A stretch of DNA of 64,000 nucleotides from Cercospora beticola (taxonomy: Eukaryota; Ascomycota; Dothideomycetes; Mycosphaerellales; Mycosphaerellaceae), in NCBI RefSeq assembly GCF_033473495.1, contig NC_088935.1, positions 1,364,001-1,428,000 of the forward strand, in the 5' to 3' direction. The position numbers and the translations under genes were made by a program. Below the pieces are notes generated by a model. The model did not search any database. It was not told the origin of the DNA and saw nothing but the letters and a program-made list of their open reading frames with translations. Shown here one piece after another: positions 28,771 to 64,000 of the stretch; positions within the stretch are counted from its first letter, which is position 1; the number at the start of each line of letters is the position of its first letter.

Positions 28771-29441
28771 TAATAGCGAAATCCTAGAGCTTTGTTTCGT
28801 TGCCTCTCGGCTAAAAAGGTATAATATCCGAGCTTAGTAAGTACGGATAGCTCTAGGTTATAAATCTTTAGTATATTACTACGTAACCTAGGCATTACGT
28901 AATATTACGTAACCCGCTCTTATAACTATCCCCTTCCTTAGAAGGCGACGCCCCGGCGCTAAGCCCGGATTACGTACTTAGAGGCCGTAGTATATTACGT
29001 AACTAAGAGTGCTTACTAAGTTATATTAACTCTAAAGCGATAGGTAAGGGACTATAGAAGTATATAGGTCGCACGCGTACGGAACCTAGTTACGTAATAC
29101 GAGTACGTAATAAGGCAAATCTATAAACGTTATCTAGTACTAAGGTATTTAGCTTTAGTACGTATACCGACGCAATTTTAACTCTGCTTTTTAGCTCTAA
29201 GCGAGGATCGAACTAAAGACCTCGGATATACTAAGCTACCGACTTCGGCCGAACCTATAGTAGAACTATTAAGCTTAGATATTCTTATAATAGCGAAATC
29301 CTAGAGCTTTATTTCGTTACCTCTTAGCTAAAAAGGCATAATATCCGAGCTTAGTAAGTACGGATAGCTCTAGGTTATAAATCTTTAGTATATTACTACG
29401 TAACCTAGGCATTACGTAACATTACGTAACCCGCTCTTATA
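28771..29441. mobile_element. 671 bp miniature LTR element (TRIM-like)
   Basis: Two direct terminal repeats of exactly 154 bp (28,771-28,924 and 29,288-29,441) enclose 363 bp. The element is bounded by a 7 bp duplication GCTAGTA (28,764-28,770 and 29,442-29,448), and the flanks join into a continuous sequence also found in the ~1.05 kb elements. Each repeat starts TAATAGCG and ends CTCTTATA, as TG...CA would after RIP. The repeats differ mainly at transition sites, and the first is less mutated. The inside has no coding capacity, several TTACGTAA palindromes and a tRNA-like segment. No convincing primer site or polypurine tract was seen, so TRIM is the best of several names. Confidence 0.55.
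29193..29256 (-). other. tRNA-like segment with polymerase III A- and B-box motifs
   Basis: On the minus strand it reads an A-box-like TAGCTTAGTATATCC (29,238-29,224) followed closely by a B-box-like AGTTCGATCCTC ending near 29,202. The spacing is shorter than in a normal tRNA and no full cloverleaf is clear. It lies inside the mini-LTR element; the mirror copy is at about 63,706-63,769. It may be a tRNA-derived promoter captured by the element. Confidence 0.4.
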
Positions 29442-29448
29442 GCTAGTA

Positions 29449-30907
29449 GATAAGAGGATCGGGCTTCTAAGTAAGTAATTATATAAGAGCTAGAAGTATA
29501 TAGCTCGAGAGATATAGCTTATTAGACGTTAAGATATAATAGCTAGTACTACTTATACTTAGTATAGAATAAAAGTACGTAGAACGTATATAAACTAAGA
29601 AGATAAGAATTATTCTTAATATTTCTAGATAGAGAGTCTAGAGGCGCTTAATATATTACTATATTCTACTCTTATAATTATAATTCTTCTACTTTATTAA
29701 GAGTAGCGATCTATTAAGACCTATTATACTTACGCGAAATATATCTACTTAGCAGACTAATTATAATAACGATATACTAAACGATAGATAGCTATTAGAC
29801 TATATTAAAAAGATATTAGAATCCGGAATAATATAAGCTAAAGAGAAATAGAATAAGGATATAAATAATACTAACGACGCTAGTAATATATATATAATAT
29901 ATAGGCGCCTCTAAGCTAAAAATAATACGTTATATAAATAGCTAGAAATCTATACTCTTAAAGCTAAGAACGAATACTTACTAAGAGAAGTTACTATATC
30001 TAGAACGAATAAGCTATAAGTAGCGAAGTATATATTTTAATTATATCTATCTACTAACTACTATCTAAAGGAAGTACTAGCCGCTAAGTATAGCTAGTAT
30101 AGTAGTAGTAGCTATATAGTTATACTATAATAATTACTTCTCTCTTTATTTTAAAAAAGTATTATTCTCGATATAGTATATATCTTAGTACTAAATACGC
30201 GAGAGTATATCTTAGTCTTAAAGCGTAAGCTCTCTTTATATCTTTTAGCTATCTTAATATCTCTAGACTAACTAGCGCTCCTTCTTAGTAGTAGCCTTAC
30301 GTTTTATAAATCGAGTAGGAGTAGCTATAGTAGTCTCTTCCTAAGCTTCTACTAAGTAGCTCGAGTAGCGCTTAGTCTTCTCGATAGGCGTTTCTATAGA
30401 ACTATCTATTAAGCTAGTTTTTATTATAGACTTAGCTAAAGTTAGGCCGGTCTTTATTATAGACTTAGCTAAAGAGAATTTAGCGGCCGAGGAGTTAAGC
30501 TTAGTTAAGAAAGCTAAGAGTACTAACTTTCTAGTAGTTCTCTAGCTCTAGCTCTTTAGTATCTCGATTATAGTAGGCTTACTCTTCTTTAGCTAGGCCT
30601 TAGAGATAGTCTATTAAAGATTATCGGACTTCTTCTTATAGCGAAAAGGCTTAGCTAAAGCTACTATAGAGAGTTAGAGCTCGTCCTCTAAATCTTCTCT
30701 AATCTCCGAAGCTAGTAGAGAGTTAATAGTACTATCGGAGTTATTATTAGTAGTATTATCTATTAGGTATAAGAATAAGTATAAGTAGAGCGCCGAGTTA
30801 TCCTTCTATATCTAAGTAAGAGTCTAGTAGTAGCCGCGGATAGAATATAAGGAAAGAAAAAGGTAGTCTAGATATAAAAATATAGTATACTTAAATTTTA
30901 ACTTATC
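29449..30907 (+). mobile_element. unidentified RIP-mutated element relic
   Basis: One plus-strand frame can be followed from about 29,740 to 30,180 with only TAA/TAG stops. Its product would be Lys/Glu/Asn-rich and probably coiled (leucine-rich stretch around 29,780-29,990). I do not recognise it. The left end continues, across the mini-LTR insertion, from 28,716-28,763, and resembles part of the ~1.05 kb elements. Ends at the Copia copy 2 LTR. Mirrored at 62,055-63,513. Confidence 0.4.
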
Positions 30908-31129
30908 TATTAGAAAGTATAGTCTAGTTAGATATTCTAAGAGATACTTTAGAGATTAGAATTAGGTAATATAGGTTATATAATACTAGGTTATATAACC
31001 TAGCTAATATCTATTTTAGAAGTAAGATATAACTTATAACTAACTAATATAATTAACTTAGTTAGTTTCTACTTATTATCTCTACTTCTACTATATTATA
31101 TCTATTAGACGAGTACCTACGAGAATATA
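30908..31129 (+). repeat. Copia copy 2, 5' LTR
   Basis: 222 bp direct repeat of 41,891-42,112, differing at scattered transition sites. Contains the palindromic AGGTTATATA core. Confidence 0.85.
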
Positions 31130-31134
31130 AATTA

Positions 31135-31152
31135 ATAGGTTATAAGCTCGAG
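31135..31152 (+). other. Copia copy 2 primer-binding site
   Basis: ATAGGTTATAAGCTCGAG, five bases inside the LTR; the same RIP-altered complement of the initiator tRNA-Met anticodon arm as in copy 1. Confidence 0.65.
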
Positions 31153-32001
31153 TTTATAGAGAAGCTCTAAGTAGAAAGAGTTAGCCTTCTTATCTTTAAA
31201 GTAATATATATTACCTCTTATAGAACCTATAGTATTAACTAGATAAAGAAGTAGGAAAAGAGTATAAGGGAGACTAGAAGCATATCCTATCTATACTACT
31301 TTAAAGCTTTAGAAGATCCTAGTTATAAGCTAGAAGTCTCTAAAAAGTAGATAAAATAGAGAAAAGTCTAGTAAAGTATACTCTACTTTAAAAGAGAAGT
31401 ATACTAAAGAAGTATAAAGAGGAAAGGATTAGCCTTAGACTATAGTACTTAAGTAGATAAGACTAGGCCTAAGTACTAAGTACTACTAATACCTTAGAAC
31501 TAGCTAGTAGTACTTTTCTAAGAAAGTAGATCTTTTAGAAATTCTTTATTTAAAAACCTAACTAACTTCTATAAGAGAGAAGAGTCCTTAGATATCTTAG
31601 CTAAGAAAGAAGAGTCTTAGTAACTAGAGAAAGCAGAAATCTAGAAGCTACTAATTAGATTAAAAGAGCTTATATTTCTAGAGTTTAGATTTATTTATTT
31701 AATTTTATAGAAATAGATTTAATAAGTAAATTAGATAGGAGGAGAATACTAATTCTAATAAGGAAGAACTAGAAACTATAGTTTAAGCTATAGAAGAATA
31801 TACTTAGAGAAAAAGAAATCTTCTAGATAATCTTAGACTTAAAGAGATTATTAGTACCTACTCTAGCTAAAGCTAAAGTATTTAAAGCTTTATTAAGTAA
31901 AGAGAAAGGTACTATATTTTTAGAGTTTAGCTTAAAATAGTAGAAGGATAATATAAAGGCAATCTATATTCTAATAGAAAGTCTTTATATAAATAACTAA
32001 G

Positions 32002-35000
32002 GAAAAAATATAAACGCGCTCTAGTAGGCGATAACGACGATAGTAGAAGGCCTCGAGGCCTTCTAATACGTAATAATACCTCTCGACCGATACTATAATA
32101 CTATAAGTAGAGAAGGAAGTCTAGAAGGAGGAAGTTACGACTCTAACTCCTAGGTAGTCTAAACCTACTTATAACTACCTCTCTCTAGCTAATAAGGCTA
32201 GAAAATAACTACTAATACTAATATTCTAAAACTAATAATCTAAAAGAACCTAAAAATACTTATAGAATAGATCTAGAGTTATTTCGATATCTAGATAACT
32301 CTTTCTTTCTCTCTAACTCTTCTTCTTCTCTAATAGGTCTAATAGGCTCTTCTCTACTTCGCTCTCTACTAGGAAGAGTCGTAGACTCTTTAAGCTATCT
32401 AGAAAACTCTCTAGAGCTACCTAATACCTACTACTACTACTTTTAAAATATAGGCCTAGATAGCTTAAATTAGATATATAATACTAAGGCTCTAGCTCTA
32501 AGTATCTATAACTATCTTAGTAAGGATAGGAAACTAAGAAGAAAGGGAGATAATAAAGAAAATAAACTATAAAGAGCTTAGAAGGAAACTAGGAGTATAG
32601 TAGTTTAAGGCTATATAAAAGCTTCTAAGTAGAGACCTTAAAGTTATTCTCTATAGAGAAGAAGAGAAAAGTAGACTAGAGAAGGACTAATTTTAGCTTA
32701 AAGCTATATACCTAGAGGCCTAGGTAGAGATACTAAGTACCTAGGTAATTATATATAGTATTAGGATATCCTAGAAGCTAGAGGATATAAATAGCTAGAT
32801 CTAGCTCGACTAAGATAACTTTACCTAGTTTCTAAATAGGCTTAAAATTAGGAAGGCCTTTTAGCTTAAGAACTAGAGAGTAAGAGAAGAGACTAACTTC
32901 TTATTAGTAGTAATAGTAGTATAGGATAGACAAACTATAAGGGAAATATATAGAAGAGGTATTACTATTAGATTAATATAGTATATAGTAGAACTATACT
33001 ACCTATAGTAGAGGATTATATAATGCCTTAAGTATAATAGCTTTAGGTATATTACTACCTACTATAAGGCTATAGAAGACATATATAGAAACTATATAGA
33101 GAAGTATAGGATAGATAGCTATAAGAAGAAGAAAATTAAATACTATAACTATAAGAGAGACTATAAGGTATACTCTCTCTAATATAGCTATAAAGCTACT
33201 ATAAAGGCTAAAGCAAGAGCATTCTTAGAGTAGTTTAAAAAGCAATAGGAGATAGCCTTAGGCCTAATATAAGGAGATAGTAATATAGAACCTCTAATCC
33301 TTAAAAGGAAAGCTCTACTAGCTAAGCCTCTATAGAGGAATATTAGATATAAAGGCAGGCCCCTAGGCACTATAGTAGTAGTAATAGCTAGTAGGAGGCA
33401 AGCAAGCAAGCTCTACTTCTCTTCTATATAGAAGAATAAGGATACCTAAAAGGTAATAAGTATCCTCTAGAAAGATATAGATATTAACCTAATTAAGCTT
33501 CTTCTCTAAGAATTCTATAAATCCTATAAGTAGCTAAACTCTAATAATCTACTAATATAATATTAATAGGTTAAATACTACCTAAACTCTACTACTAGAT
33601 AGCTAAGCTATAGAAGAGGCTATAGTAATAGTACTATAAGAACTATAGCTTAATACTATAAATAGTAGAACTAAAGCTAATTTATAGTAGAACTAAAGCT
33701 AAGAAAGGATACTCTATAGTCCTCCTACTCTAGTAGAACCTAAAAGTAGTAATACTTATATTAGATAAAGTTAGAACTAATAGCTAAAAACTACTCTTCT
33801 ATAATATAGATAACTTAGTAACTATCTAAGTCTAGATATCTATAGAAACTATCTCTATTTATAACTACTATAACTTCTTAGAGCTAATAAGCTATAAATA
33901 AGAAAGGACTATTTCTATATTCTAAAAAGTACTATTATAAACTCTAGAGGATATAAAAGTAAGCTATATAGTAGTAGGAGACTTTAACTTCTACTACTTA
34001 AAATAGAGAGGAAATATAATCTAAACCTAATATACTATAGTAGATAAGCTTATTAAAATAATTATAGAGGCCTAACTATAGCTAGCTCTAGAGCTAGAGA
34101 TAATTATATAGGAAAGATATATAGCTAGCTACTAAATACTAGACCTAGTCTTTATTAGCCTCTTCTTCTAAAACCTAATCTAAGAATATAAAGCTCTCTT
34201 AGAAGAAATATATAGCTCTAACTATATCTCTCTTAGAATAACTCTCTATATTAATCTCTAAGAGCTAAAAGAAAGAAGCTAGAGAAAGTAGTAGAAAGCT
34301 ACTAACTAGAATAGAATCTAGGACCTTATAGTCTAAAATACTAACTAACTTAACTAACTCCTACTTAATATAAAGGAATACCTAGATATACTAGCCTATA
34401 GAATATAATTCTCTATCTAGAGGATTATAGAGGAGATAGTTCTAATAGCTAGACTATTAAGCTATATAAAGATAGTATAGACCTAGGAATATAAGGAAGC
34501 TATAAAGCTAGTAAGAAGAAAGAGAAGAGAATAGAGGAACTATAAAATAGAATAGAGCTATAAGCTATATCTTAAAGTATTATATATAAGAAGTAAGGCT
34601 ATAAGAAGAGAGTAGAACCTAGCTTAGAGGAGACTAATAAAAGAAGTTATAGAGGACTCTAAGAAAATCTAGAAAATAGCTAAATAGACTAGAGAAAGAG
34701 CTAACTAAGAGTACTAGCTACTATACTTCCTAAGCCTAGCTAATATAGAGTATAATAGAAATACTAATAAGAGGAAGGCTATAATCCTAGTAAGATACTT
34801 CTTCCTAGACCTAAGAGAAGTAGACTTAAGTAATATCTAATATACCTAACTACTACTCTAATTCTAGATAGAGGTTAAGGTTTAACTAAAAGAAGTAGAA
34901 GGAGTCCTTAGGAAACTACCTAGTAATAAGGCTCTAGGACCTAACTAAATACTAAATTTCTTACTTAAAGAGTATAGAGAATAAATTTCTCTAATTCTAG

Positions 35001-37067
35001 CTAAACTCTTTACTATATACCTAAGGATAGTATACTACTTTAAAGCTTTTAAGTACTCTATAATAGTAGTACTTAGGAAACTATAGAAGCTAGACTACTT
35101 AAAGCTAGGAGTATATAGACCTATTACTCTACTTAATATAATAGTAAAGGTCCTAGAAGCTATAGTTACTAAGAGAATATCTAAGAAAGCTAAAGAAAGG
35201 AAGCTCTTTCTAGAAGAATAAATAGGTACTAGGCCTAGTAAGTCTACTACTTTAGTATTAGACTTTATTACTAAGTAAGTAAAAACTATCTAGGAAACTA
35301 AGCTAGGAGCTATAGTATCTATACTCTACCTTAATATTTTAGAGGTATTTAATAAAGTCTTCTACTAGAAGCTACTTTATAATATTAGAATAAAAGGCTT
35401 CCTAGACTATACTATTAGCTTTATCTAATTATTCCTCTAAGATAGGACTACCTATCTAAGGCTTAGAGAATTTATAGACTAACTAAAGCTCTAAAATATA
35501 GGAATTCTCTAAGGCTCTACTCTATCTCTAATTCTCTTCCTCTTCTTTGCCTCTACTCTACTCCTAATACTCTATAAAGGGACTACTTTAGTAATAGGGT
35601 TTATAGATAACTTTAATATCCTTATATATAGTATATTAATAGAGGATAACTATAGGTAACTTAAGAAAGTCTACTAGAAATATAAAGAATAGGTAAGGAG
35701 ATATAGAGTAGAATTTATACTATAGAAATATTAGCTAATCTACTTTACTAGAAGTAGGAAGTATAACTTTAAAGCTATAGTCTAAATCTAGAGATTTAAT
35801 AGAGAACTACTACTATTACTTAGACTCCTTAGAGTATAGATAGATACTAAACTTAAATAGAGCCTATATATTAAATAAGTAGTAGAAAAGGGAGCCTACT
35901 AAATATAATTACTTTAGAGACTATATAAGTCTATATAGAGAGTATCCTTCTAAAAAGTAAGGTATCTTTATATAGTAGTAGTAAGACTAGCTATTACTTT
36001 TAGCTACTAAGTCTAGTCTAACCTAGAGAGTATATAAAGCTACTATAGAAACTTTACTAAACCTATTAAGAAGATCTAGAGAGAGGCCCTAAGGAATATT
36101 ATAGAAGTATATAAGTTAGTTATAATAGCTATTCTAGAGAAAGAAGCAAATATTACTTCTCTCTATTTATATACCTAGGACCTAGCTAGATAAGTATCTA
36201 AAAAGTAAGATATCTAACCTATATACTAGTATATTAAAGATAAGTATAAGAAGATTAAAAGGTAAGTATAAGTAGGAAAGAGAGCTAGGTAACTAGTACT
36301 ACTAACCTAAACTAGATAGGAGGAAATTCTCTAGATAGTATAAGGCTAAGAAATAATAATATAGATATACTTAGGCTATAAGGTATAGTAGGCTAAATAC
36401 TAGTAGAATAGAAAGTAGGAAAGGAATAAGAAAGAGAGAAGAGTAAGAGTAGAAGAGGAATAACTACTAGTATAGAAAACTACTATCTTCTCTACTATTA
36501 GACTAACTCTATATAAAGAACTTACTAGACTAGAGAGTATAATAGTTATACTCTTAAGGATAGAGTATATTAGAATAAGGCAATATCTTACTAAAAGGAG
36601 AGTCCTAGGTTTTATACTAGACTACGAATATAGATAGAGATATAAGATACTAAAATATATATATATATTCTATCTAAAATAGAACGAGAGAAGATACCTA
36701 CTATTCTAGATAGGAGTATCTATAAACTAGAAGGACCTAGCTAATATAAAGAGAGAGCTATATATAATAGTAAAGTAGCTTATCTAAGAAGAGGTTCTAG
36801 ACTAATTCTTACTTATAAGAGAAGAGGTATAGAAGGATAAGAGAAGAGAGAAGAGGAAGAATAGAGTCTAGTAAAAGAAGGACTTACTAGATACCTAGTA
36901 TTATCTAAAGGAAAATAGAAGCGAAGGAAGTAGCTACGTAGACTATAAATAAAGGAATATATAAGAGTTTTTCGAAGGCTTTTCTCTTAACCGAAATCTA
37001 TAGAGCGTACTATTTACTCTAGTTAAAAGAGGTAGACCGGCGTATAAGAATTATCTATCTATCTATC
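32002..37067 (+). mobile_element. LINE family A (Tad-like), copy L2, nested in Copia copy 2
   Basis: 5,066 bp with a 14 bp target duplication (TATAAATAACTAAG at 31,988-32,001 and 37,068-37,081). The matching uninterrupted Copia sequence lies in copy 1 near 16,440-16,470. Colinear with L1: CpG-bearing leader, ORF1, endonuclease (Gly-Asp-Phe-Asn at about 33,980), reverse transcriptase (Asp-Asn for Asp-Asp at about 35,606), (ATCT)n tail. It has more RIP changes than L1 and a 22 bp direct duplication at about 33,665-33,710 absent from L1. Its mirror copy L3 has exactly the same length. Confidence 0.88.
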
Positions 37068-40000
37068 TATAAATAACTAAGATAAGGTAATAGATAAGAT
37101 AAGAGTATATAATATCTAGATAAAGCTATATAGGAAATATAGTAAAGTCTAATAGATATATATAATAGCTATTATCTAAGAATTTATAACTTTTAAGATA
37201 GAACTAGAGAATATAATTAGGAAATTATAGGTCTACTTTAGTAATCTTAGAAGGAGGATTATAGAAATTAACTAGAGAGAGTTATACTATAAGACTTCTA
37301 ATATAAGGATTAAGTATCTACTCTTTATACTTCTAGCTAAGTATAAGAGTATAAGATAGACTATCTAAGCTTAGAAGAACTTAGACTCTAAAGAAATCCT
37401 CTAACTTCTTAAAGTAGAGAAGTTAATATAGTATAGATACTAGTTATAAGAAATAGTAATATTTACTAAAGAAAGAGAGATCTAAAGTATAAAGCTAAAA
37501 TACTACTTCTATAAGAAGGAGTATTTTAGAGATATTACTAAGTATCTATACTTTAATAAAGCTAAGAGAACTATTAACTTAAAATAAGCTAGTAGAATAG
37601 AGAAGAGAAGAATACTATCTAGAGAGAGTATATTTAGAAAGAGATCTTTACTAGATAGAGAAGTATTAAAAGAAATAGTAAAGAAACTTAATCTAAAAGT
37701 CTAATTTCTTAAGAAGAAATAAAGCTTAAGAAAGTTTTCTAAGAAAATATATACTACTTAAGAAGATATAGAGCCTTCTATAGTATTTAAAGTATCTTAA
37801 TTTCTATTAGAGAATAATAATATTAATAAAGTTATATACTTAACTATAGAAGTAAAAAATAAGTATATACTATTAAAATAGCTACTTAACTCCTATACTT
37901 TATTATATATAACTAACTAAGAATTACTTTTTAGAGAACTAAAATCTCTTTAGAGGAAAAAGTAGATTAAAGTTAGAGGTAGCTATCTAATAGCTATATA
38001 TATAGGAAATATAGTAATAAATAGAAAAAGAGAAAAATAGATTATTCTTAAGAAATATTCTCTTTATATCTAGTCTAGAAGTAAATCTTATTTCTTAGAG
38101 CTAATTTAGCTAGTAGTATAGTATTTAACTACTAAAATTTATACTTATTTTATTATCTAGGAAACTAGTTATCTAGATAAAACTATTAGAAGAAGTACTA
38201 TTTATTAAGAAGATTAATAATATATTATAGAAGCTTATAATATTATACTTTAATTAAAAATAAGAAAATAAAGCCTATACTTTTAAAGCCTAAGAAAAGA
38301 TCTAGAAGTAGTAGAAGCTTTAGTATAGAAAACTTATATATTTTAGAGAAAGTCTTCTTAGAAACCTATATAAAGTATCTAACTTAAAGGCTTAGATTTC
38401 TATTCTAAAGGAATACTAACCTTATAGAGTATATTCCTTAGTAAAAATAAAAAAATATAGAGAGAAAGAAACTAAAAGAAAACTCTAAAAGTTATCTCTA
38501 GTTTCTATTAATATCTATAGTTCTTTACTTATTTTAAAATTAGAATATAAATAGTAGCTTAAGATTATTAATAACTTCTTAAGAAAGAAATAGACTTTTC
38601 TAATAAAGTCTAGAGAAGATATACTAAGTATTCTTAAAAACTAGAAAGTAAAAGCTAAGCTATAATTAGAAAACTCTTTCTAAATTATAAGGAGTAATAG
38701 AGTAAGAGAGCTTCTTACTATACTAAAGTAGTAGGAAAAGGAATATAGAATTTCCTTCTATATAACTAAAGTATATAACTCTATCTAGAATAGAGTAGTT
38801 AAGAGGTTAATCTAAATCTCTAAAGACTATATAAGAATAATACTAGAAGATACCTATATATCTATTAAATTCTAGCTAGAAGCCTTAGTAGCCTATATAG
38901 TTATTAGAAATTCTCTTTCTAATAGTCTAGAAATTAATAGATTTAAAGTATTACCTAAGAAAGCCTTTTTAGGTATTTAACTCTTAGTATTATACTTTAG
39001 AGTTTAGAGTTATAAAGTAGTAGTCTATATAGATCCTAAGTTCTAGCTAGTAGAAATAAGATTAGATAAACTAATAAATAGAAGTAAAAATACTATATTT
39101 ATTAGGTATATTCCTAATACTACTAAAATATAGCTCTTCTAAGAGTCTAATATAAGAGCTATTAAAGCCTATAATACTACTACTTAGTTTAAGTATAAGA
39201 AAGGAGAAGATATAGAGCTAAATATTCCTAAGCTTAATTAAGTAAGTAGTATATCTATTAGAAACTTAGTTAGTAGACCTCTAAAGAAACTAATAGTAGT
39301 TATACTTTCTATAGCTACTATATCTATAGCTATAGTAACTAAACCTATAGGTCCTAGCTAAATACTTTTTATATAGTTACTATCTCTACTAAAGAATAAG
39401 AAGAAGTACTAGAGAATAGAAGATCTAGAAGAAGAAAACTCTAGAGAACTATAACTCTAGTAGAAGAAAAGTAGAACTACTAAACTACTTAAGCTAAGCT
39501 AGGAAGTTAATAGATAAGCTAGTCCTAGTACTAGTAGAAGACTATGTTCTAAAGTAAGAGAATTAAATATTATATAGTAGGACCTATAAGGAAATAGAGA
39601 TTAGAAAAGGAACTAAAACTAAACTTATAGCTAAAAGAGAAGAAGATCTATCTTAGATAAAGGACTAGGCCTAGAGCTAAAAGCTTATAGTATAGTAATA
39701 AAATAAGTACTTTAGAAGAGATAGAGAGAATATAGATAGAAGGAGGAGCCTAGTACTAAGTATTATAAAGTATTTCTAAGCTAAGTCTAAAGCTAAGAAT
39801 AGAAGTAGATTTAGGAAGCTCTATTAGAGATTTAGAAGTCTATATTTATAGTAATTACTCCTTAAGTCTCTATATAGAAATAAGAGGTACCTATTCTAAA
39901 GTCCTATAAAGAGGTAATTTAGAATTCTAAATAGAAATATATATAGAAGGATATAGTCTAAAAGGAACTAACTATATTAAGAAGTAATAATATCTAGATA

Positions 40001-41890
40001 AAGATTATTCTACCTAAAGGAGTAAACCTTATTATATCTAAGTAGGTATTTAATATAAAGAGATTAATTAGTAGAGCTATTAAGAAGTTTAAAGTAAGAC
40101 TAGTTATAAGAGGTTTCTTTTAGAAGTTTAGAATTAATTTCTAGAAGACCTTTATACTAATAGTTAGGTATAATACTTTAAGAGTATTTATAGCTATAGT
40201 TTATAAAAAGGATCTAGAACTCTACTAAGTAGATATAAATAATATATTTACTAAGAGTAAACTTTAAGAAGAAATCTTTATAATTCTACTACTAGAAGTT
40301 AAGATTCTATCTAATATAGTTCTATAAATTCTAAGAAGCTTATATAGACTAAAGTAAGTAGTAAGAGACTAGAATAAACTCTATATTTTAAAGTTAAAAC
40401 ATATTAGGTTTATATAATTAGAAGTAGACCTATACTTTCTTATCTACTAGGAAAGGAATATTCTAATTCTAATCTATATAGATAATATTCTAATTATAGT
40501 ACTAAAGCTAGAAGATATACTTTAGTTTAAGGAATAGCTAGGTAAGGTATTTAAGATTAAAGATCTTAGAGAACTAGAGAAAATTCTTAGAATAAGGTTA
40601 ATAAGAGATAGATAAGCTAGAACTTTAAAGCTTAATTAAGAATACTTTATCTAGGAGAACCTTATAAAGCTAGGAATAACTAAGGAGATAGCTAACCTAA
40701 CTCTTTTACTAATAGATAGTTATAATAGCCTAAAACTAATAGGCTTATATAATAAGAGAGAGAGAACAAAATAGAGTACTAAAGCTAAACTAGTATCTAG
40801 ATATAGCTTATAGTTATAATAAGACTAGATATTACTTTCTTTTTTAGAAAGTTAAGCTTATATATCTTAGACCTAACTAAGAGGTATATATAAGCTCTAA
40901 AGAAACTAGTAAGATACTTAAAGTTATCCTAAAACTTAGAACTAATATTTAGAAGAAATAGAGAAAGCCTAATAGGATATTTAGACTCTAACTATATAAT
41001 AGACAAAGTAGATAGAGTCTTAATTCTTAGGAGTATCTTCTTTCTTTATAGAGCTCTAGTTTCTTAGATAAGTAGGAAGCAAAAGTCTATTATAATATTA
41101 ATAATAGAAGCTAAGTATATAGCTATAAATATATATATAAAGCAATCTTAGTTCCTAGTAGTACTCTTAAGAGAGATAGACTATATAGAGTTAGTAGGAG
41201 AATACCTATTCTAACTAACTATAAAAGTATATTCTAATATAGTAAGAGAACTAAGGCTAGTATAAATTATAGGAGATAATTAGGTAACTTTAACTCTTAT
41301 TAAGGATATATATACCTATAAGAGATCTAAATATATTAATATTATATATAACTATATTAGATATCTCTAGTAGTAGAGGAAGGTTATAGTAGAATATATT
41401 CTAATAAAAGAGATAGTTACTAATAGCCTAACTAAACTAAAGAATAGGCTATAGTTTTAGGAGTTTATAAGACAACTCTAGCTTATATAGAGAAAGGCAA
41501 AAGATTTATACTCTAACTATAGATTAAACTCTAGACCTTAGGATAATTAATAAAAGATACGTACTATAATATTAGAGATATTACGGTATATATAAAACTA
41601 AGCCTAGGAGTTATACTATAGGAGAAGTAGCTTGCTATATATAATAAGTAACTAGGATCTAGGAATCTATATATAGTCTAAAAGAGAAAAGCCTAGAAGA
41701 GAAACAAAAGGTATATACTCTAGTATTAATATTACTATAGTATATACGATACTAGGCTAAGGAGTTAAACTAAGATAGATTAGATATATAGCTCTAACTA
41801 TATAACTATAGCACCTAATAACTTATTATAATTTAGAGATAGATTTAAATATAGGAATATAGGTAGAAGACTATCTAGCCTAAGTAGAAG

Positions 41891-42112
41891 TATTAGAAAG
41901 TATAGTCTAGTTAGATATTCTAAGAGATACTTTAGAGATTAGGATTAGGTAATATAGGTTATATAATACTAGATTATATAACCTAGCTAATACCTATCTT
42001 AGGAGTAAGATATAACCTATAACTAACTAATATAATTAGCTCGGTTAGTTCCTACTTATTATCTCTACTTCTACTATATTATACCTATCCGATAAGTACC
42101 TACGAGAATATA
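41891..42112 (+). repeat. Copia copy 2, 3' LTR
   Basis: 222 bp, the same length and termini as the 5' LTR. It lies outside the inverted-repeat arm and therefore has no mirror copy in the window. Confidence 0.85.
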
Positions 42113-48607: not shown

Positions 48608-49190
48608 ATAGACGTCTTCATGAGCGATAAGGCTTTGTTGTTGCTTGTTTGTATACTGGACATTTGCCTATTCCAATACACTGCGTGCATCAATAGTTTA
48701 GACATAGATTTTCTCGAATGAGACACTCGCCGCATAAATTGCGCTGGAGACGGATCAGACTTCTCCCAATCGTTCAGCCTGAGAACCGGTATGCACAGTT
48801 CCAGAAACCCAAGCTGCCGTGCTTTTAAGTTTACAAGCACTTGACATCACAATGGGAGGGCGATCCTGTGACCAGGAACTTCACTCGCCACTCGATCTGA
48901 AATTTGAAGAGTGCTCAAATGCGCTTGACCTTGTTTCTTCTTGAACCTCTGCCATTTCTGGACTCGGAATTACAAGAGAGTACATGAGACCAGGCGTTTG
49001 GCAGAGATTGTCCGCCGGTCACCGGCGAATATCATGCCATGATGTTCGCGAACGGTCGAGTTCTCTGCGATTTTCGAAGACTGTCGCCAGAAAGTAGCTG
49101 AGCGACATTTTAGTAATAGCGTTTTAGCAATACTGCATTTCGAACCCCACTTGATGCCAATTATAGCAGATTTTGACCAACTTAGCCCTT
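48608..49190. other. right edge of the gene island, no convincing gene
   Basis: A minus-strand frame of about 87 codons (48,840-48,577) begins at a non-ATG codon and has no domain. Composition turns AT-rich at about 49,190. Confidence 0.4.
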
Positions 49191-51963: not shown

Positions 51964-54900
51964 TATATAGTTAGAGTCTAAATATCCTATTAGGCTTTCT
52001 CTATTTCTTCTAAATATTAGTTCTAAGTTTTAGGATAACTTTAAGTATCTTACTAGTTTCTTTAGAGCTTATATATACCTCTTAGTTAGGTCTAAGATAT
52101 ATAAGCTTAACTTTCTAAAAAAGAAAGTAATATCTAGTCTTATTATAACTATAAGCTATATCTAGATACTAGTTTAGCTTTAGTACTCTATTTTGTTCTC
52201 TCTCTCTTATTATATAAGCCTATTAGTTTTAGGCTATTATAACTATCTATTAGTAAAAGAGTTAGGTTAGCTATCTCCTTAGTTATTCCTAGCTTTATAA
52301 GGTTCTCCTAGATAAAGTATTCTTAATTAAGCTTTAAAGTTCTAGCTTATCTATCTCTTATTAACCTTATTCTAAGAATTTTCTCTAGTTCTCTAAGATC
52401 TTTAATCTTAAATACCTTACCTAGCTATTCCTTAAACTAAAGTATATCTTCTAGCTTTAGTACTATAATTAGAATATTATCTATATAGATTAGAATTAGA
52501 ATATTCCTTTCCTAGTAGATAAGAAAGTATAGGTCTACTTCTAATTATATAAACCTAATATGTTTTAACTTTAAAATATAGAGTTTATTCTAGTCTCTTA
52601 CTACTTACTTTAGTCTATATAAGCTTCTTAGAATTTATAGAACTATATTAGATAGAATCTTAACTTCTAGTAGTAGAATTATAAAGATTTCTTCTTAAAG
52701 TTTACTCTTAGTAAATATATTATTTATATCTACTTAGTAGAGTTCTAGATCCTTTTTATAAACTATAGCTATAAATACTCTTAAAGTATTATACCTAACT
52801 ATTAGTATAAAGGTCTTCTAGAAATTAATTCTAAACTTCTAAAAGAAACCTCTTATAACTAGTCTTACTTTAAACTTCTTAATAGCTCTACTAATTAATC
52901 TCTTTATATTAAATACCTACTTAGATATAATAAGGTTTACTCCTTTAGGTAGAATAATCTTTATCTAGATATTATTACTTCTTAATATAGTTAGTTCCTT
53001 TTAGACTATATCCTTCTATATATATTTCTATTTAGAATTCTAAATTACCTCTTTATAGGACTTTAGAATAGGTACCTCTTATTTCTATATAGAGACTTAA
53101 GGAGTAATTACTATAAATATAGACTTCTAAATCTCTAATAGAGCTTCCTAAATCTACTTCTATTCTTAGCTTTAGACTTAGCTTAGAAATACTTTATAAT
53201 ACTTAGTACTAGGCTCCTCCTTCTATCTATATTCTCTCTATCTCTTCTAAAGTACTTATTTTATTACTATACTATAAGCTTTTAGCTCTAGGCCTAGTCC
53301 TTTATCTAAGATAGATCTTCTTCTCTTTTAGCTATAAGTTTAGTTTTAGTTCCTTTTCTAATCTCTATTTCCTTATAGGTCCTACTATATAATATTTAAT
53401 TCTCTTACTTTAGAACATAGTCTTCTACTAGTACTAGGACTAGCTTATCTATTAACTTCCTAGCTTAGCTTAAGTAGTTTAGTAGTTCTACTTTTCTTCT
53501 ACTAGAGTTATAGTTCTCTAGAGTTTTCTTCTTCTAGATCTTCTATTCTCTAGTACTTCTTCTTATTCTTTAGTAGAGATAGTAACTATATAAAAAGTAT
53601 TTAGCTAGGACCTATAGGTTTAGTTACTATAGCTATAGATATAGTAGCTATAGAAAGTATAACTACTATTAGTTTCTTTAGAGGTCTACTAACTAAGTTT
53701 CTAATAGATATACTACTTACTTAATTAAGCTTAGGAATATTTAGCTCTATATCTTCTCCTTTCTTATACTTAAACTAAGTAGTAGTATTATAGGCTTTAA
53801 TAGCTCTTATATTAGACTCTTAGAAGAGCTATATTTTAGTAGTATTAGGAATATACCTAATAAATATAGTATTTTTACTTCTATTTATTAGTTTATCTAA
53901 TCTTATTTCTACTAGCTAGAACTTAGGATCTATATAGACTACTACTTTATAACTCTAAACTCTAAAGTATAATACTAAGAGTTAAATACCTAAAAAGGCT
54001 TTCTTAGGTAATACTTTAAATCTATTAATTTCTAGACTATTAGAAAGAGAATTTCTAATAACTATATAGGCTACTAAGGCTTCTAGCTAGAATTTAATAG
54101 ATATATAGGTATCTTCTAGTATTATTCTTATATAGTCTTTAGAGATTTAGATTAACCTCTTAACTACTCTATTCTAGATAGAGTTATATACTTTAGTTAT
54201 ATAGAAGGAAATTCTATATTCCTTTTCCTACTACTTTAGTATAGTAAGAAGCTCTCTTACTCTATTACTCCTTATAATTTAGAAAGAGTTTTCTAATTAT
54301 AGCTTAGCTTTTACTTTCTAGTTTTTAAGAATACTTAGTATATCTTCTCTAGACTTTATTAGAAAAGTCTATTTCTTTCTTAAGAAGTTATTAATAATCT
54401 TAAGCTACTATTTATATTCTAATTTTAAAATAAGTAAAGAACTATAGATATTAATAGAAACTAGAGATAACTTTTAGAGTTTTCTTTTAGTTTCTTTCTC
54501 TCTATATTTTTTTATTTTTACTAAGGAATATACTCTATAAGGTTAGTATTCCTTTAGAATAGAAATCTAAGCCTTTAAGTTAGATACTTTATATAGGTTT
54601 CTAAGAAGACTTTCTCTAAAATATATAAGTTTTCTATACTAAAGCTTCTACTACTTCTAGATCTTTTCTTAGGCTTTAAAAGTATAGGCTTTATTTTCTT
54701 ATTTTTAATTAAAGTATAATATTATAAGCTTCTATAATATATTATTAATCTTCTTAATAAATAGTACTTCTTCTAATAGTTTTATCTAGATAACTAGTTT
54801 CCTAGATAATAAAATAAGTATAAATTTTAGTAGTTAAATACTATACTACTAGCTAAATTAGCTCTAAGAAATAAGATTTACTTCTAGACTAGATATAAAG

Positions 54901-55894
54901 AGAATATTTCTTAAGAATAATCTATTTTTCTCTTTTTCTATTTATTACTATATTTCCTATATATATAGCTATTAGATAGCTACCTCTAACTTTAATCTAC
55001 TTTTTCCTCTAAAGAGATTTTAGTTCTCTAAAAAGTAATTCTTAGTTAGTTATATATAATAAAGTATAGGAGTTAAGTAGCTATTTTAATAGTATATACT
55101 TATTTTTTACTTCTATAGTTAAGTATATAACTTTATTAATATTATTATTCTCTAATAGAAATTAAGATACTTTAAATACTATAGAAGGCTCTATATCTTC
55201 TTAAGTAGTATATATTTTCTTAGAAAACTTTCTTAAGCTTTATTTCTTCTTAAGAAATTAGACTTTTAGATTAAGTTTCTTTACTATTTCTTTTAATACT
55301 TCTCTATCTAGTAAAGATCTCTTTCTAAATATACTCTCTCTAGATAGTATTCTTCTCTTCTCTATTCTACTAGCTTATTTTAAGTTAATAGTTCTCTTAG
55401 CTTTATTAAAGTATAGATACTTAGTAATATCTCTAAAATACTCCTTCTTATAGAAGTAGTATTTTAGCTTTATACTTTAGATCTCTCTTTCTTTAGTAAA
55501 TATTACTATTTCTTATAACTAGTATCTATACTATATTAACTTCTCTACTTTAAGAAGTTAGAGGATTTCTTTAGAGTCTAAGTTCTTCTAAGCTTAGATA
55601 GTCTATCTTATACTCTTATACTTAGCTAGAAGTATAAAGAGTAGATACTTAATCCTTATATTAGAAGTCTTATAGTATAACTCTCTCTAGTTAATTTCTA
55701 TAATCCTCCTTCTAAGATTACTAAAGTAGACCTATAATTTCCTAATTATATTCTCTAGTTCTATCTTAAAAGTTATAAATTCTTAGATAATAGCTATTAT
55801 ATATATCTATTAGACTTTACTATATTTCCTATATAGCTTTATCTAGATATTATATACTCTTATCTTATCTATTACCTTATCTTAGTTATTTATA

Positions 55895-58800
55895 GATAGA
55901 TAGATAGATAATTCTTATACGCCGGTCTACCTCTTTTAACTAGAGTAAATAGTACGCTCTATAGATTTCGGTTAAGAGAAAAGCCTTCGAAAAACTCTTA
56001 TATATTCCTTTATTTATAGTCTACGTAGCTACTTCCTTCGCTTCTATTTTCCTTTAGATAATACTAGGTATCTAGTAAGTCCTCCTTTTACTAGACTCTA
56101 TTCTTCCTCTTCTCTCTTCTCTTATCCTTCTATACCTCTTCTCTTATAAGTAAGAATTAGTCTAGAACCTCTTCTTAGATAAGCTACTTTACTATTATAT
56201 ATAGCTCTCTCTTTATATTAGCTAGGTCCTTCTAGTTTATAGATACTCCTATCTAGAATAGTAGGTATCTTCTCTCGTTCTATTTTAGATAGAATATATA
56301 TATATATTTTAGTATCTTATATCTCTATCTATATTCGTAGTCTAGTATAAAACCTAGGACTCTCCTTTTAGTAAGATATTGCCTTATTCTAATATACTCT
56401 ATCCTTAAGAGTATAACTATTATACTCTCTAGTCTAGTAAGTTCTTTATATAGAGTTAGTCTAATAGTAGAGAAGATAGTAGTTTTCTATACTAGTAGTT
56501 ATTCCTCTTCTACTCTTACTCTTCTCTCTTTCTTATTCCTTTCCTACTTTCTATTCTACTAGTATTTAGCCTACTATACCTTATAGCCTAAGTATATCTA
56601 TATTATTATTTCTTAGCCTTATACTATCTAGAGAATTTCCTCCTATCTAGTTTAGGTTAGTAGTACTAGTTACCTAGCTCTCTTTCCTACTTATACTTAC
56701 CTTTTAATCTTCTTATACTTATCTTTAATATACTAGTATATAGGTTAGATATCTTACTTTTTAGATACTTATCTAGCTAGGTCCTAGGTATATAAATAGA
56801 GAGAAGTAATATTTGCTTCTTTCTCTAGAATAGCTATTATAACTAACTTATATACTTCTATAATATTCCTTAGGGCCTCTCTCTAGATCTTCTTAATAGG
56901 TTTAGTAAAGTTTCTATAGTAGCTTTATATACTCTCTAGGTTAGACTAGACTTAGTAGCTAAAAGTAATAGCTAGTCTTACTACTACTATATAAAGATAC
57001 CTTACTTTTTAGAAGGATACTCTCTATATAGACTTATATAGTCTCTAAAGTAATTATATTTAGTAGGCTCCCTTTTCTACTACTTATTTAATATATAGGC
57101 TCTATTTAAGTTTAGTATCTATCTATACTCTAAGGAGTCTAAGTAATAGTAGTAGTTCTCTATTAAATCTCTAGATTTAGACTATAGCTTTAAAGTTATA
57201 CTTCCTACTTCTAGTAAAGTAGATTAGCTAATATTTCTATAGTATAAATTCTACTCTATATCTCCTTACCTATTCTTTATATTTCTAGTAGACTTTCTTA
57301 AGTTACCTATAGTTATCCTCTATTAATATACTATATATAAGGATATTAAAGTTATCTATAAACCCTATTACTAAAGTAGTCCCTTTATAGAGTATTAGGA
57401 GTAGAGTAGAGGCAAAGAAGAGGAAGAGAATTAGAGATAGAGTAGAGCCTTAGAGAATTCCTATATTTTAGAGCTTTAGTTAGTCTATAAATTCTCTAAG
57501 CCTTAGATAGGTAGTCCTATCTTAGAGGAATAATTAGATAAAGCTAATAGTATAGTCTAGGAAGCCTTTTATTCTAATATTATAAAGTAGCTTCTAGTAG
57601 AAGACTTTATTAAATACCTCTAAAATATTAAGGTAGAGTATAGATACTATAGCTCCTAGCTTAGTTTCCTAGATAGTTTTTACTTACTTAGTAATAAAGT
57701 CTAATACTAAAGTAGTAGACTTACTAGGCCTAGTACCTATTTATTCTTCTAGAAAGAGCTTCCTTTCTTTAGCTTTCTTAGATATTCTCTTAGTAACTAT
57801 AGCTTCTAGGACCTTTACTATTATATTAAGTAGAGTAATAGGTCTATATACTCCTAGCTTTAAGTAGTCTAGCTTCTATAGTTTCCTAAGTACTACTATT
57901 ATAGAGTACTTAAAAGCTTTAAAGTAGTATACTATCCTTAGGTATATAGTAAAGAGTTTAGCTAGAATTAGAGAAATTTATTCTCTATACTCTTTAAGTA
58001 AGAAATTTAGTATTTAGTTAGGTCCTAGAGCCTTATTACTAGGTAGTTTCCTAAGGACTCCTTCTACTTCTTTTAGTTAAACCTTAACCTCTATCTAGAA
58101 TTAGAGTAGTAGTTAGGTATATTAGATATTACTTAAGTCTACTTCTCTTAGGTCTAGGAAGAAGTATCTTACTAGGATTATAGCCTTCCTCTTATTAGTA
58201 TTTCTATTATACTCTATATTAGCTAGGCTTAGGAAGTATAGTAGCTAGTACTCTTAGTTAGCTCTTTCTCTAGTCTATTTAGCTATTTTCTAGATTTTCT
58301 TAGAGTCCTCTATAACTTCTTTTATTAGTCTCCTCTAAGCTAGGTTCTACTCTCTTCTTATAGCCTTACTTCTTATATATAATACTTTAAGATATAGCTT
58401 ATAGCTCTATTCTATTTTATAGTTCCTCTATTCTCTTCTCTTTCTTCTTACTAGCTTTATAGCTTCCTTATATTCCTAGGTCTATACTATCTTTATATAG
58501 CTTAATAGTCTAGCTATTAGAACTATCTCCTCTATAATCCTCTAGATAGAGAATTATATTCTATAGGCTAGTATATCTAGGTATTCCTTTATATTAAGTA
58601 GGAGTTAGTTAAGTTAGTTAGTATTTTAGACTATAAGGTCCTAGATTCTATTCTAGTTAGTAGCTTTCTACTACTTTCTCTAGCTTCTTTCTTTTAGCTC
58701 TTAGAGATTAATATAGAGAGTTATTCTAAGAGAGATATAGTTAGAGCTATATATTTCTTCTAAGAGAGCTTTATATTCTTAGATTAGGTTTTAGAAGAAG

Positions 58801-60960
58801 AGGCTAATAAAGACTAGGTCTAGTATTTAGTAGCTAGCTATATATCTTTCCTATATAATTATCTCTAGCTCTAGAGCTAGCTATAGTTAGGCCTCTATAA
58901 TTATTTTAATAAGCTTATCTACTATAGTATATTAGGTTTAGATTATATTTCCTCTCTATTTTAAGTAGTAGAAGTTAAAGTCTCCTACTACTATATAGCT
59001 TACTTTTATATCCTCTAGAGTTTATAATAGTACTTTTTAGAATATAGAAATAGTCCTTTCTTATTTATAGCTTATTAGCTCTAAGAAGTTATAGTAGTTA
59101 TAAATAGAGATAGTTTCTATAGATATCTAGACTTAGATAGTTACTAAGTTATCTATATTATAGAAGAGTAGTTTTTAGCTATTAGTTCTAACTTTATCTA
59201 ATATAAGTATTACTACTTTTAGGTTCTACTAGAGTAGGAGGACTATAGAGTATCCTTTCTTAGCTTTAGTTCTACTATAAATTAGCTTTAGTTCTACTAT
59301 TTATAGTATTAAGCTATAGTTCTTATAGTACTATTACTATAGCCTCTTCTATAGCTTAGCTATCTAGTAGTAGAGTTTAGGTAGTATTTAACCTATTAAT
59401 ATTATATTAGTAGATTATTAGAGTTTAGCTACTTATAGGATTTATAGAATTCTTAGAGAAGAAGCTTAATTAGGTTAATATCTATATCTTTCTAGAGGAT
59501 ACTTATTACCTTTTAGGTATCCTTATTCTTCTATATAGAAGAGAAGTAGAGCTTGCTTGCTTGCCTCCTACTAGCTATTACTACTACTATAGTGCCTAGG
59601 GGCCTGCCTTTATATCTAATATTCCTCTATAGAGGCTTAGCTAGTAGAGCTTTCCTTTTAAGGATTAGAGGTTCTATATTACTATCTCCTTATATTAGGC
59701 CTAAGGCTATCTCCTATTGCTTTTTAAACTACTCTAAGAATGCTCTTGCTTTAGCCTTTATAGTAGCTTTATAGCTATATTAGAGAGAGTATACCTTATA
59801 GTCTCTCTTATAGTTATAGTATTTAATTTTCTTCTTCTTATAGCTATCTATCCTATACTTCTCTATATAGTTTCTATATATGTCTTCTATAGCCTTATAG
59901 TAGGTAGTAATATACCTAAAGCTATTATACTTAAGGCATTATATAATCCTCTACTATAGGTAGTATAGTTCTACTATATACTATATTAATCTAATAGTAA
60001 TACCTCTTCTATATATTTCCCTTATAGTTTGTCTATCCTATACTACTATTACTACTAATAAGAAGTTAGTCTCTTCTCTTACTCTCTAGTTCTTAAGCTA
60101 AAAGGCCTTCCTAATTTTAAGCCTATTTAGAAACTAGGTAAAGTTATCTTAGTCGAGCTAGATCTAGCTATTTATATCCTCTAGCTTCTAGGATATCCTA
60201 ATACTATATATAATTACCTAGGTACTTAGTATCTCTACCTAGGCCTCTAGGTATATAGCTTTAAGCTAAAATTAGTCCTTCTCTAGTCTACTTTTCTCTT
60301 CTTCTCTATAGAGAATAACTTTAAGGTCTCTACTTAGAAGCTTTTATATAGCCTTAAACTACTATACTCCTAGTTTCCTTCTAAGCTCTTTATAGTTTAT
60401 TTTCTTTATTATCTCCCTTTCTTCTTAGTTTCCTATCCTTACTAAGATAGTTATAGATACTTAGAGCTAGAGCCTTAGTATTATATATCTAATTTAAGCT
60501 ATCTAGGCCTATATTTTAAAAGTAGTAGTAGTAGGTATTAGGTAGCTCTAGAGAGTTTTCTAGATAGCTTAAAGAGTCTACGACTCTTCCTAGTAGAGAG
60601 CGAAGTAGAGAAGAGCCTATTAGACCTATTAGAGAAGAAGAAGAGTTAGAGAGAAAGAAAGAGTTATCTAGATATCGAAATAACTCTAGATCTATTCTAT
60701 AAGTATTTTTAGGTTCTTTTAGATTATTAGTTTTAGAATATTAGTATTAGTAGTTATTTTCTAGCCTTATTAGCTAGAGAGAGGTAGTTATAAGTAGGTT
60801 TAGACTACCTAGGAGTTAGAGTCGTAACTTCCTCCTTCTAGACTTCCTTCTCTACTTATAGTATTATAGTATCGGTCGAGAGGTATTATTACGTATTAGA
60901 AGGCCTCGAGGCCTTCTACTATCGTCGTTATCGCCTACTAGAGCGCGTTTATATTTTTTC
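55895..60960 (-). mobile_element. LINE family A (Tad-like), copy L3
   Basis: 5,066 bp, reverse complement of L2, with the same target duplication (55,881-55,894 and 60,961-60,974), the same internal 22 bp duplication and the same surviving motifs. It is a passive copy made by the large duplication, not an independent insertion. The plus-strand 73-codon frame at 59,553-59,774 is a shadow of ORF1. Confidence 0.9.
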
Positions 60961-61832
60961 CTTAGTTATTTATATAAAGACTTTCTATTAGAATATAGAT
61001 TGCCTTTATATTATCCTTCTACTATTTTAAGCTAAACTCTAAAAATATAGTACCTTTCTCTTTACTTAATAAAGCTTTAAATACTTTAGCTTTAGCTAGA
61101 GTAGGTACTAATAATCTCTTTAAGTCTAAGATTATCTAGAAGATTTCTTTTTCTCTAAGTATATTCTTCTATAGCTTAAACTATAGTTTCTAGTTCTTCC
61201 TTATTAGAATTAGTATTCTCCTCCTATCTAATTTACTTATTAAATCTATTTCTATAAAATTAAATAAATAAATCTAAACTCTAGAAATATAAGCTCTTTT
61301 AATCTAATTAGTAGCTTCTAGATTTCTGCTTTCTCTAGTTACTAAGACTCTTCTTTCTTAGCTAAGATATCTAAGGACTCTTCTCTCTTATAGAAGTTAG
61401 TTAGGTTTTTAAATAAAGAATTTCTAAAAGATCTACTTTCTTAGAAAAGTACTACTAGCTAGTTCTAAGGTATTAGTAGTACTTAGTACTTAGGCCTAGT
61501 CTTATCTACTTAAGTACTATAGTCTAAGGCTAATCCTTTCCTCTTTATACTTCTTTAGTATACTTCTCTTTTAAAGTAGAGTATACTTTACTAGACTTTT
61601 CTCTATTTTATCTACTTTTTAGAGACTTCTAGCTTATAACTAGGATCTTCTAAAGCTTTAAAGTAGTATAGATAGGATATGCTTCTAGTCTCCCTTATAC
61701 TCTTTTCCTACTTCTTTATCTAGTTAATACTATAGGTTCTATAAGAGGTAATATATATTACTTTAAAGATAAGAAGGCTAACTCTTTCTACTTAGAGCTT
61801 CTCTATAAACTCGAGCTTATAACCTATTAATT

Positions 61833-62054
61833 TATATTCTCGTAGGTACTCGTCTAATAGATATAATATAGTAGAAGTAGAGATAATAAGTAGAAACTAA
61901 CTAAGTTAATTATATTAGTTAGTTATAAGTTATATCTTACTTCTAAAATAGATATTAGCTAGGTTATATAACCTAGTATTATATAACCTATATTACCTAA
62001 TTCTAATCTCTAAAGTATCTCTTAGAATATCTAACTAGACTATACTTTCTAATA
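61833..62054 (-). repeat. Copia copy 3, 5' LTR
   Basis: 222 bp; mirror of 30,908-31,129. Confidence 0.85.
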
Positions 62055-63513
62055 GATAAGTTAAAATTTAAGTATACTATATTTTTATATCTAGACTACC
62101 TTTTTCTTTCCTTATATTCTATCCGCGGCTACTACTAGACTCTTACTTAGATATAGAAGGATAACTCGGCGCTCTACTTATACTTATTCTTATACCTAAT
62201 AGATAATACTACTAATAATAACTCCGATAGTACTATTAACTCTCTACTAGCTTCGGAGATTAGAGAAGATTTAGAGGACGAGCTCTAACTCTCTATAGTA
62301 GCTTTAGCTAAGCCTTTTCGCTATAAGAAGAAGTCCGATAATCTTTAATAGACTATCTCTAAGGCCTAGCTAAAGAAGAGTAAGCCTACTATAATCGAGA
62401 TACTAAAGAGCTAGAGCTAGAGAACTACTAGAAAGTTAGTACTCTTAGCTTTCTTAACTAAGCTTAACTCCTCGGCCGCTAAATTCTCTTTAGCTAAGTC
62501 TATAATAAAGACCGGCCTAACTTTAGCTAAGTCTATAATAAAAACTAGCTTAATAGATAGTTCTATAGAAACGCCTATCGAGAAGACTAAGCGCTACTCG
62601 AGCTACTTAGTAGAAGCTTAGGAAGAGACTACTATAGCTACTCCTACTCGATTTATAAAACGTAAGGCTACTACTAAGAAGGAGCGCTAGTTAGTCTAGA
62701 GATATTAAGATAGCTAAAAGATATAAAGAGAGCTTACGCTTTAAGACTAAGATATACTCTCGCGTATTTAGTACTAAGATATATACTATATCGAGAATAA
62801 TACTTTTTTAAAATAAAGAGAGAAGTAATTATTATAGTATAACTATATAGCTACTACTACTATACTAGCTATACTTAGCGGCTAGTACTTCCTTTAGATA
62901 GTAGTTAGTAGATAGATATAATTAAAATATATACTTCGCTACTTATAGCTTATTCGTTCTAGATATAGTAACTTCTCTTAGTAAGTATTCGTTCTTAGCT
63001 TTAAGAGTATAGATTTCTAGCTATTTATATAACGTATTATTTTTAGCTTAGAGGCGCCTATATATTATATATATATTACTAGCGTCGTTAGTATTATTTA
63101 TATCCTTATTCTATTTCTCTTTAGCTTATATTATTCCGGATTCTAATATCTTTTTAATATAGTCTAATAGCTATCTATCGTTTAGTATATCGTTATTATA
63201 ATTAGTCTGCTAAGTAGATATATTTCGCGTAAGTATAATAGGTCTTAATAGATCGCTACTCTTAATAAAGTAGAAGAATTATAATTATAAGAGTAGAATA
63301 TAGTAATATATTAAGCGCCTCTAGACTCTCTATCTAGAAATATTAAGAATAATTCTTATCTTCTTAGTTTATATACGTTCTACGTACTTTTATTCTATAC
63401 TAAGTATAAGTAGTACTAGCTATTATATCTTAACGTCTAATAAGCTATATCTCTCGAGCTATATACTTCTAGCTCTTATATAATTACTTACTTAGAAGCC
63501 CGATCCTCTTATC
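62055..63513 (-). mobile_element. unidentified relic, mirror of 29,449-30,907
   Basis: Inverted copy of the relic left of Copia copy 2, with the same decayed minus-strand frame. No independent information. Confidence 0.4.
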
Positions 63514-63520
63514 TACTAGC

Positions 63521-64000
63521 TATAAGAGCGGGTTACGTAATGTTACGTAATGCCTAGGTTACGTAGTAATATACTAAAGATTTATAACCTAGAGCTATCC
63601 GTACTTACTAAGCTCGGATATTATGCCTTTTTAGCTAAGAGGTAACGAAATAAAGCTCTAGGATTTCGCTATTATAAGAATATCTAAGCTTAATAGTTCT
63701 ACTATAGGTTCGGCCGAAGTCGGTAGCTTAGTATATCCGAGGTCTTTAGTTCGATCCTCGCTTAGAGCTAAAAAGCAGAGTTAAAATTGCGTCGGTATAC
63801 GTACTAAAGCTAAATACCTTAGTACTAGATAACGTTTATAGATTTGCCTTATTACGTACTCGTATTACGTAACTAGGTTCCGTACGCGTGCGACCTATAT
63901 ACTTCTATAGTCCCTTACCTATCGCTTTAGAGTTAATATAACTTAGTAAGCACTCTTAGTTACGTAATATACTACGGCCTCTAAGTACGTAATCCGGGCT
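63521..64000. mobile_element. partial miniature LTR element, mirror of 28,962-29,441
   Basis: One 154 bp terminal repeat (63,521-63,674) and 326 bp of the inside, including the tRNA-like segment (about 63,706-63,769). Cut by the window edge. Confidence 0.55.

Follow-up and report, generated by a model that had tools for sequence, protein, structure and literature searches.

A near-identical inverted repeat of dead transposons within an AT-rich, RIP-affected block of Cercospora beticola

The window, the whole 64,000-bp stretch analysed from the genome of Cercospora beticola, a pathogen that causes leaf spot of beet (C1:1,364,001-1,428,000), contained a large inverted repeat whose long, near-identical arms lie on opposite strands of one chromosome in the assembly sequence. 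Judging from the elements in the arms and from the positions of their edges, the repeat may be a real, young inverted duplication, produced when dead copies of a single LTR element, here called M, provided the homology for copying. We give this reading about an even chance. The locus illustrates a known type of event with unusual clarity and is not a new kind of structure.

Geometry and element content of the arms

In a self-comparison of the window, positions 28,962-40,998 and 51,964-64,000 were reverse complements; over 12,037 bp they showed a single mismatch, no gap and a constant coordinate sum of 92,962. This bore out the original prediction of an inverted repeat with arms of at least 12 kb and no indel, and the 10,965 bp that it had placed between the arms correspond exactly to positions 40,999-51,963. 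The right arm was also said to run past the window, making the true size larger. It does so, although by 348 exact bases only: after the flanking chromosome was added, the exact arms covered 28,614-40,998 and 51,964-64,348 (12,385 bp, one mismatch, no indels). The arms, the spacer and the elements that compose them are as follows.

28,614..40,998, plus strand: left arm, exact part (12,385 bp), differing from the right arm at one site
51,964..64,000, minus strand: right arm, extending to 64,348, beyond the window
40,999..51,963, no strand: spacer of 10,965 bp between the exact arms
27,913..28,719, minus strand: M3, 5' part of a copy of M; the exact arm starts within its LTR
30,908..42,120, plus strand: M1, copia-type LTR element (LTRs at 30,908-31,137 and 41,891-42,120), interrupted by K
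32,002..37,081, plus strand: K, non-LTR element of about 5.06 kb, inserted in M1
51,964..62,054, minus strand: M2 with K, right-arm mirror of M1, cut at the end of the captain relic
49,154..51,963, minus strand: captain relic of family F with a DUF3435 tyrosine-recombinase domain, reading inward from 51,963, with many stops

The arms are nested dead transposons, in which the non-LTR element K splits the copia-type M, together with a small core. Three Pfam scans were made of the arms, each covering two of the six frames, and matches were obtained in one scan only. M1 matched RVT_2 (E 3.7e-20, at about 40,004-40,687), and K gave a weak RVT_1 match below the Pfam cut-off (E 4e-4, at about 35,108-35,743). 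K was flanked on both sides by the 14-bp direct repeat TATAAATAACTAAG, and its mirror copy in the right arm lies at 55,866-60,959. A copy of M in the right flank, M4, had no K at the matching site, and at another locus (L026) a different K was found inside a different M, with an overlap of 19 bp. A candidate target duplication of M1 (TTATC and TTAAC) agreed at four of five bases, a weak match. The core (28,720-30,907) was composed of pieces that occur separately elsewhere; a 2-kb query (28,962-30,961) was intact in the two arms only, among the 79 matches listed. An Rfam search of the window returned no matches.

Repeat searches covered the 36.07-Mb genome in ten contigs, and copy numbers are lower bounds (at least), as scoring covered the best candidates only. 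Outside the two arms, the closest copy of K was 94% identical (among the 33 matches listed), as was the closest copy of the outer stretch of M (among the 40 matches listed), and the closest copy elsewhere of the arm-internal part of M was about 95% identical (among the matches listed). A divergence of 6% would correspond to about 743 differences over the arms, against the one seen. Since the closest other listed copies of K and M are only 94-95% identical, the identity of the arms is neither chance nor ordinary likeness among local repeats.

The edges of the exact repeat

The core is abutted by the 5' LTRs of both M3 on the left and its partner M4 on the right, the latter beginning at 64,243, outside the window. 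Within the exact arm, M3 and M4 were identical over 106 sites, whereas outward of it, over about 700 bp (27,913-28,613 against 64,349-65,049), they differed at 45 of 701 sites. Ten fetched copies of M compared with M3 showed 43-52 differences over the same outer stretch and 1-5 inside, and the outer part of M4 was closest to M1 (32 of 701 sites different). Because M3 and M4 agree fully inside the arm and differ outside it as unrelated copies do, the outer edge of the exact repeat is, on this comparison, a sharp switch within an LTR common to two otherwise unrelated copies of M.

The inner edge on the right coincides with the end of a captain relic. The relic matched PF11917 in two frames of the minus strand (E 4.3e-46 and 1.6e-13, from about 50,939 down to 49,572), with the domain starting about 1 kb inside the 51,963 edge and reading inward. 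The matched stretches contained 27 stops in the two frames, so this is not an intact mobile captain; genome-wide, five of 46 DUF3435 rows were free of stops, all of them on contig C4. Six of the seven full-length-type copies of F listed had their ends no more than 2 bp from the right inner edge, the seventh being 155 bp short, and the terminus is thus common to independent insertions, at the captain end only. Immediately after the terminus, all five copies compared continued with TATA, and four of the five with TATAT, before running into unrelated DNA. Among positions of M, 4.5% start a TATA run and 1.8% a TATAT run, and by itself the TATA match therefore has a chance of a few per cent at a random join. 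Given that F copies end at the edge and that TATA follows in five of five, the captain looks inserted in M and not joined at random, as judged from one end.

On the left, M1 crosses the inner edge (40,998) unbroken, as another copy of M does at this point, and is, by alignment, the matching (paralogous) empty site for the captain insertion. No remainder of M2 beyond the far side of the relic was found in the spacer, which suggests that the left end of the captain insertion was rearranged or lost. A search for a captain terminal repeat at the far side gave loose matches only (3-5 mismatches in 15), none of them convincing. Another copy of F (locus L023) also matched DUF3435 (E 1.3e-39 and 2.5e-11); a HET domain and dynamin domains adjoin this copy.

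With Starships, the locus shares an inward-reading captain at a common terminus, single-copy genes nearby and a HET domain near another copy of the captain. A passage of PMC12289983 describes the captain recombinase as typically the first gene of a Starship and gives a size range of 15-700 kb; here, only a RIP-dead captain end is known instead of a full element, and the distance from the captain edge to the end of M1 is at most 9.8 kb.

RIP and the age of the arms

The repeat lies in an AT-rich block of about 77 kb (about 9.2-86.4 kb in window coordinates), bordered by ordinary DNA of 50-56% GC and the only such block within the 174 kb examined. In 2-kb windows over 10,001-43,999 and 50,001-64,000, TpA/ApT was 1.64-2.09 and (CpA+TpG)/(ApC+GpT) was 0.00-0.13; the usual limits of the RIP indices are given in a passage of PMC7882544. 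One arm contained 25 CA and 7 TG against 555 AC and 480 GT, and, with both strands counted, the arms retained 32 CpA, 424 CpC and 2,763 CpT sites. Among five copies of K, 647 of 713 substituted columns were C/T or A/G, and the variable sites, sorted by unambiguous context, numbered 113 of 114 at CpA, 153 of 281 at CpC, 199 of 1,140 at CpT and 0 of 32 at CpG. High TpA/ApT, depletion of CpA+TpG and C-to-T differences in RIP context were thus found together, and the composition of the block is that left by RIP close to exhaustion. Three DNA methylase genes were found in the genome, one of them with a BAH domain and a strong full-length match to a cytosine methyltransferase in the PDB. A centromere was also considered as an explanation of the AT-rich block, but copies of its repeats occur at many places on all ten contigs, and nothing identifies the block as one.

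The captain stretch is itself RIP-saturated. Its RIP border, at about 49.2 kb, coincides with the point where similarity to other copies of F stops, and the copy on contig C8 showed the same pattern, as would be expected if RIP hit repeated DNA and spared single-copy neighbours. The captain must have arrived before its RIP, and the arms would have been made alike later, since twin arms that had gone through that RIP would be expected to have diverged at many of the 32 CpA and 424 CpC sites, yet they differ once. Because the arms retain just 32 CpA sites, the effect of RIP on them is weak, and this age argument is less firm than one for fresh DNA. The sole mismatch pairs 36,878 in the left arm with 56,084 in the right. 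Read on the same strand, the left arm has A and the right arm G, and three of four other copies of K have G and one has A; the left-arm base therefore likely, though not certainly, arose by a C-to-T type change.

In its TpA/ApT of 1.6-2.1 and near absence of CpA+TpG, the block resembles the RIP-affected AT-rich blocks of filamentous ascomycetes; in contrast to these, it contains a 12-kb duplication essentially untouched by RIP. Frequent sex in C. beticola is supported by mating-type and linkage data, according to a passage of PMC12034460. A passage of PMC10294615 reports crosses of Zymoseptoria tritici in which 12 tetrads retained a 14-kb duplication, 10 of them with new C-to-T changes in it. 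That duplication is likewise young, of similar size and in a related fungus, whereas the DNA duplicated here is RIP-saturated and shows one difference, and its few CpA sites weaken the comparison. Somewhat speculatively, RIP-exhausted transposon blocks might serve as a refuge for duplications, in which, with nearly all CpA gone, DNA can be copied without renewed mutation, and large inverted duplications with single-copy genes between them can arise and persist through sexual cycles; we regard this as doubtful.

Origin of the repeat and content of the spacer

Before the proposed event, the left side would have carried M3, the core and M1 (with K), in that order, and the right side a captain relic inserted in a pre-existing M2, with M4 outside M2. 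One side may then have suffered a break or gap, with the inverted block of the other side serving as the template for repair, whether by ectopic gene conversion, gap repair or break-induced copying between M elements in opposite orientation. Copying would have stopped at its outer end within the LTR common to M3 and M4, and at its inner end where M1 and M2 cease to be homologous, at the terminus of the captain relic. One mismatch in 12,385 bp, against 5-7% between other copies of the same elements, supports recent copying. Neither arm was singled out as the donor by local alleles of 13 copies of M (three in the window and ten fetched loci). Events between dispersed retrotransposons, whether by ectopic (non-allelic) homologous recombination, gap repair or break-induced copying, likewise have edges in homologous repeats, a long identical tract and inverted orientation; here, however, a captain relic sets the inner edge by ending the homology, and the mechanism is read from sequence alone.

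The original prediction had named a real, recombination-prone repeat and an assembly artefact as the two options. That is the right pair, although the nested transposons and the captain edge had been overlooked. An artefact is the strongest competitor, a possibility that we take seriously while rating it well below real copying. The assembly would have left the right locus via a repeat, walked the left arm again in reverse and rejoined in another M. Both right-arm edges indeed fall within or at copies of a single repeat family, and near-perfect identity over 12 kb would also be expected from a repeated assembly path. A wrong path through M would, however, normally leave bases private to M2 beside the captain, and the 2,783 bp next to the edge contained none. 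Another copy of M compared with M1 around 40,998 differed at 126 sites over these 2,783 bp and at 71 of 1,122 sites outside the arm. Two further points count against an artefact: the 174 kb around the locus contain no N, and the arms do differ by one base.

A one-ended event, which we consider unlikely, would need homology on one side only and no prior M2: a broken right end would have invaded the LTR of M3, copied the left arm inward and been end-joined at the captain. The LTR switch at the outer edge is what such an event would produce, and the overlap at the join is no longer than a few bases. The join would nevertheless have had to hit the captain terminus exactly, next to a TATA run of the kind seen at four other captain copies.

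Large inverted repeats in general have arms that are kept alike by continuing gene conversion, and an old palindrome maintained in this way would fit that behaviour. We find this improbable here: outside the exact arms homology is limited to the common M element, no gradient of divergence runs along the arms, and the arms are identical down to the final base at the inner edge, a place at which conversion should become less complete. Finally, an inverted duplication that came first, with the captain inserted into the right arm later and then partly lost, would account for M1 as a perfect empty site, yet is very improbable, as the captain is RIPped to saturation while the identical, equally exposed arms differ at one site.

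If the repeat is real, the locus is a clear snapshot of structural change in a RIP-dead block: old, RIP-scarred copies are several per cent apart, which allows both recombination edges to be placed to the single base. The locus would also provide a dateable sequence of captain insertion, RIP and duplication, and it predicts a repeat private to one isolate or clonal line, with the spacer possibly in both orientations. The question is raised of whether RIP can still control DNA in which no CpA remains. If the repeat is instead an artefact, it is a warning that long-read fungal assemblies should be checked at the level of reads wherever AT-rich transposon blocks occur. Inversion of the spacer by recombination between the arms is possible; M is intact in either orientation, and the present orientation is therefore uninformative about past flips. 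Amplification or breakage driven by the repeat had also been suggested, and nothing in the analysed sequence supports either.

The gene island and secreted-protein gene predicted for the spacer were recovered, with the following features.

44,000..49,190, no strand: GC-normal island without RIP signature, from the profiles of GC and CpA+TpG
44,505..44,897, plus strand: fragment of a TAP-like alpha/beta hydrolase (PF08386, E 9.3e-8)
45,917..46,257, plus strand: two-exon gene for a small cysteine-rich protein of 89 aa (exons at about 45,917-46,036 and 46,108-46,257)

Between the end of M1 and the island lies a RIP-saturated stretch of 1.9 kb (42,121-44,000), of which no other copy was found among the matches listed. 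The spacer is predicted to carry one intact gene, for a small secreted protein, plus the hydrolase fragment. The 89-aa protein has a signal-like start (predicted secretion), and both exon parts were identical to an 89-aa protein recorded for Cercospora beticola (P0121), which supports the assignment of the genome to this species. An open reading frame at 46,757-47,641 (minus strand) had no homologue at E 0.01 and no Pfam match. Part of 46,588-47,421 resembled, with its orientation reversed, the DNA next to another copy of F (66-80% similarity). From the RIP border beside it and the like pattern at the C8 copy, the island is possibly cargo of a former Starship. In the flank, an open reading frame at 3,953-5,398 encodes a PAS domain; among the 120 matches listed for it there was no C. 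beticola protein, a Cercospora zeae-maydis protein matched at 92%, and the best match listed was at 98%.

Variation among K copies, and a RIP-saturated stretch

Copies of K, the non-LTR element of about 5.06 kb nested in a copia-type element, were compared from window 16957-22000, window 32003-37066, the right flank and two stretches fetched from other loci of the same genome (L026 and L027). C/T variation among these copies affected CpA, CpC and CpT sites but was absent from CpG (0 of 32 sites), which seems to have been either spared or previously exhausted. Window 42121-44000 was RIP-saturated, and no other genomic copy of it was found among the matches listed. Its saturation could be due either to RIP leakage or to the loss of partner copies.

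Small secreted-protein gene and inverse similarities

45917-46257, + strand: intact two-exon gene for a small cysteine-rich protein (89 aa, signal-like start)

One search gave a single match for the product, an unnamed C. beticola protein with which it agreed at every residue. Window stretches 46588-47421 and 45463-45699 were similar to each other in inverse orientation, and also, inversely, to DNA adjoining another copy of the captain (a DUF3435 Starship-type tyrosine recombinase) on contig C2.

Captain copies elsewhere in the genome

Five of the 46 DUF3435 entries in the genome were free of stops, all on contig C4 (C4:3497805-3503632 and C4:1341362-1341970); these are possibly less decayed captains. 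A HET domain and dynamin domains were located close to another captain copy, on contig C8 (fetched stretches L023, 5137-5601, and L028).
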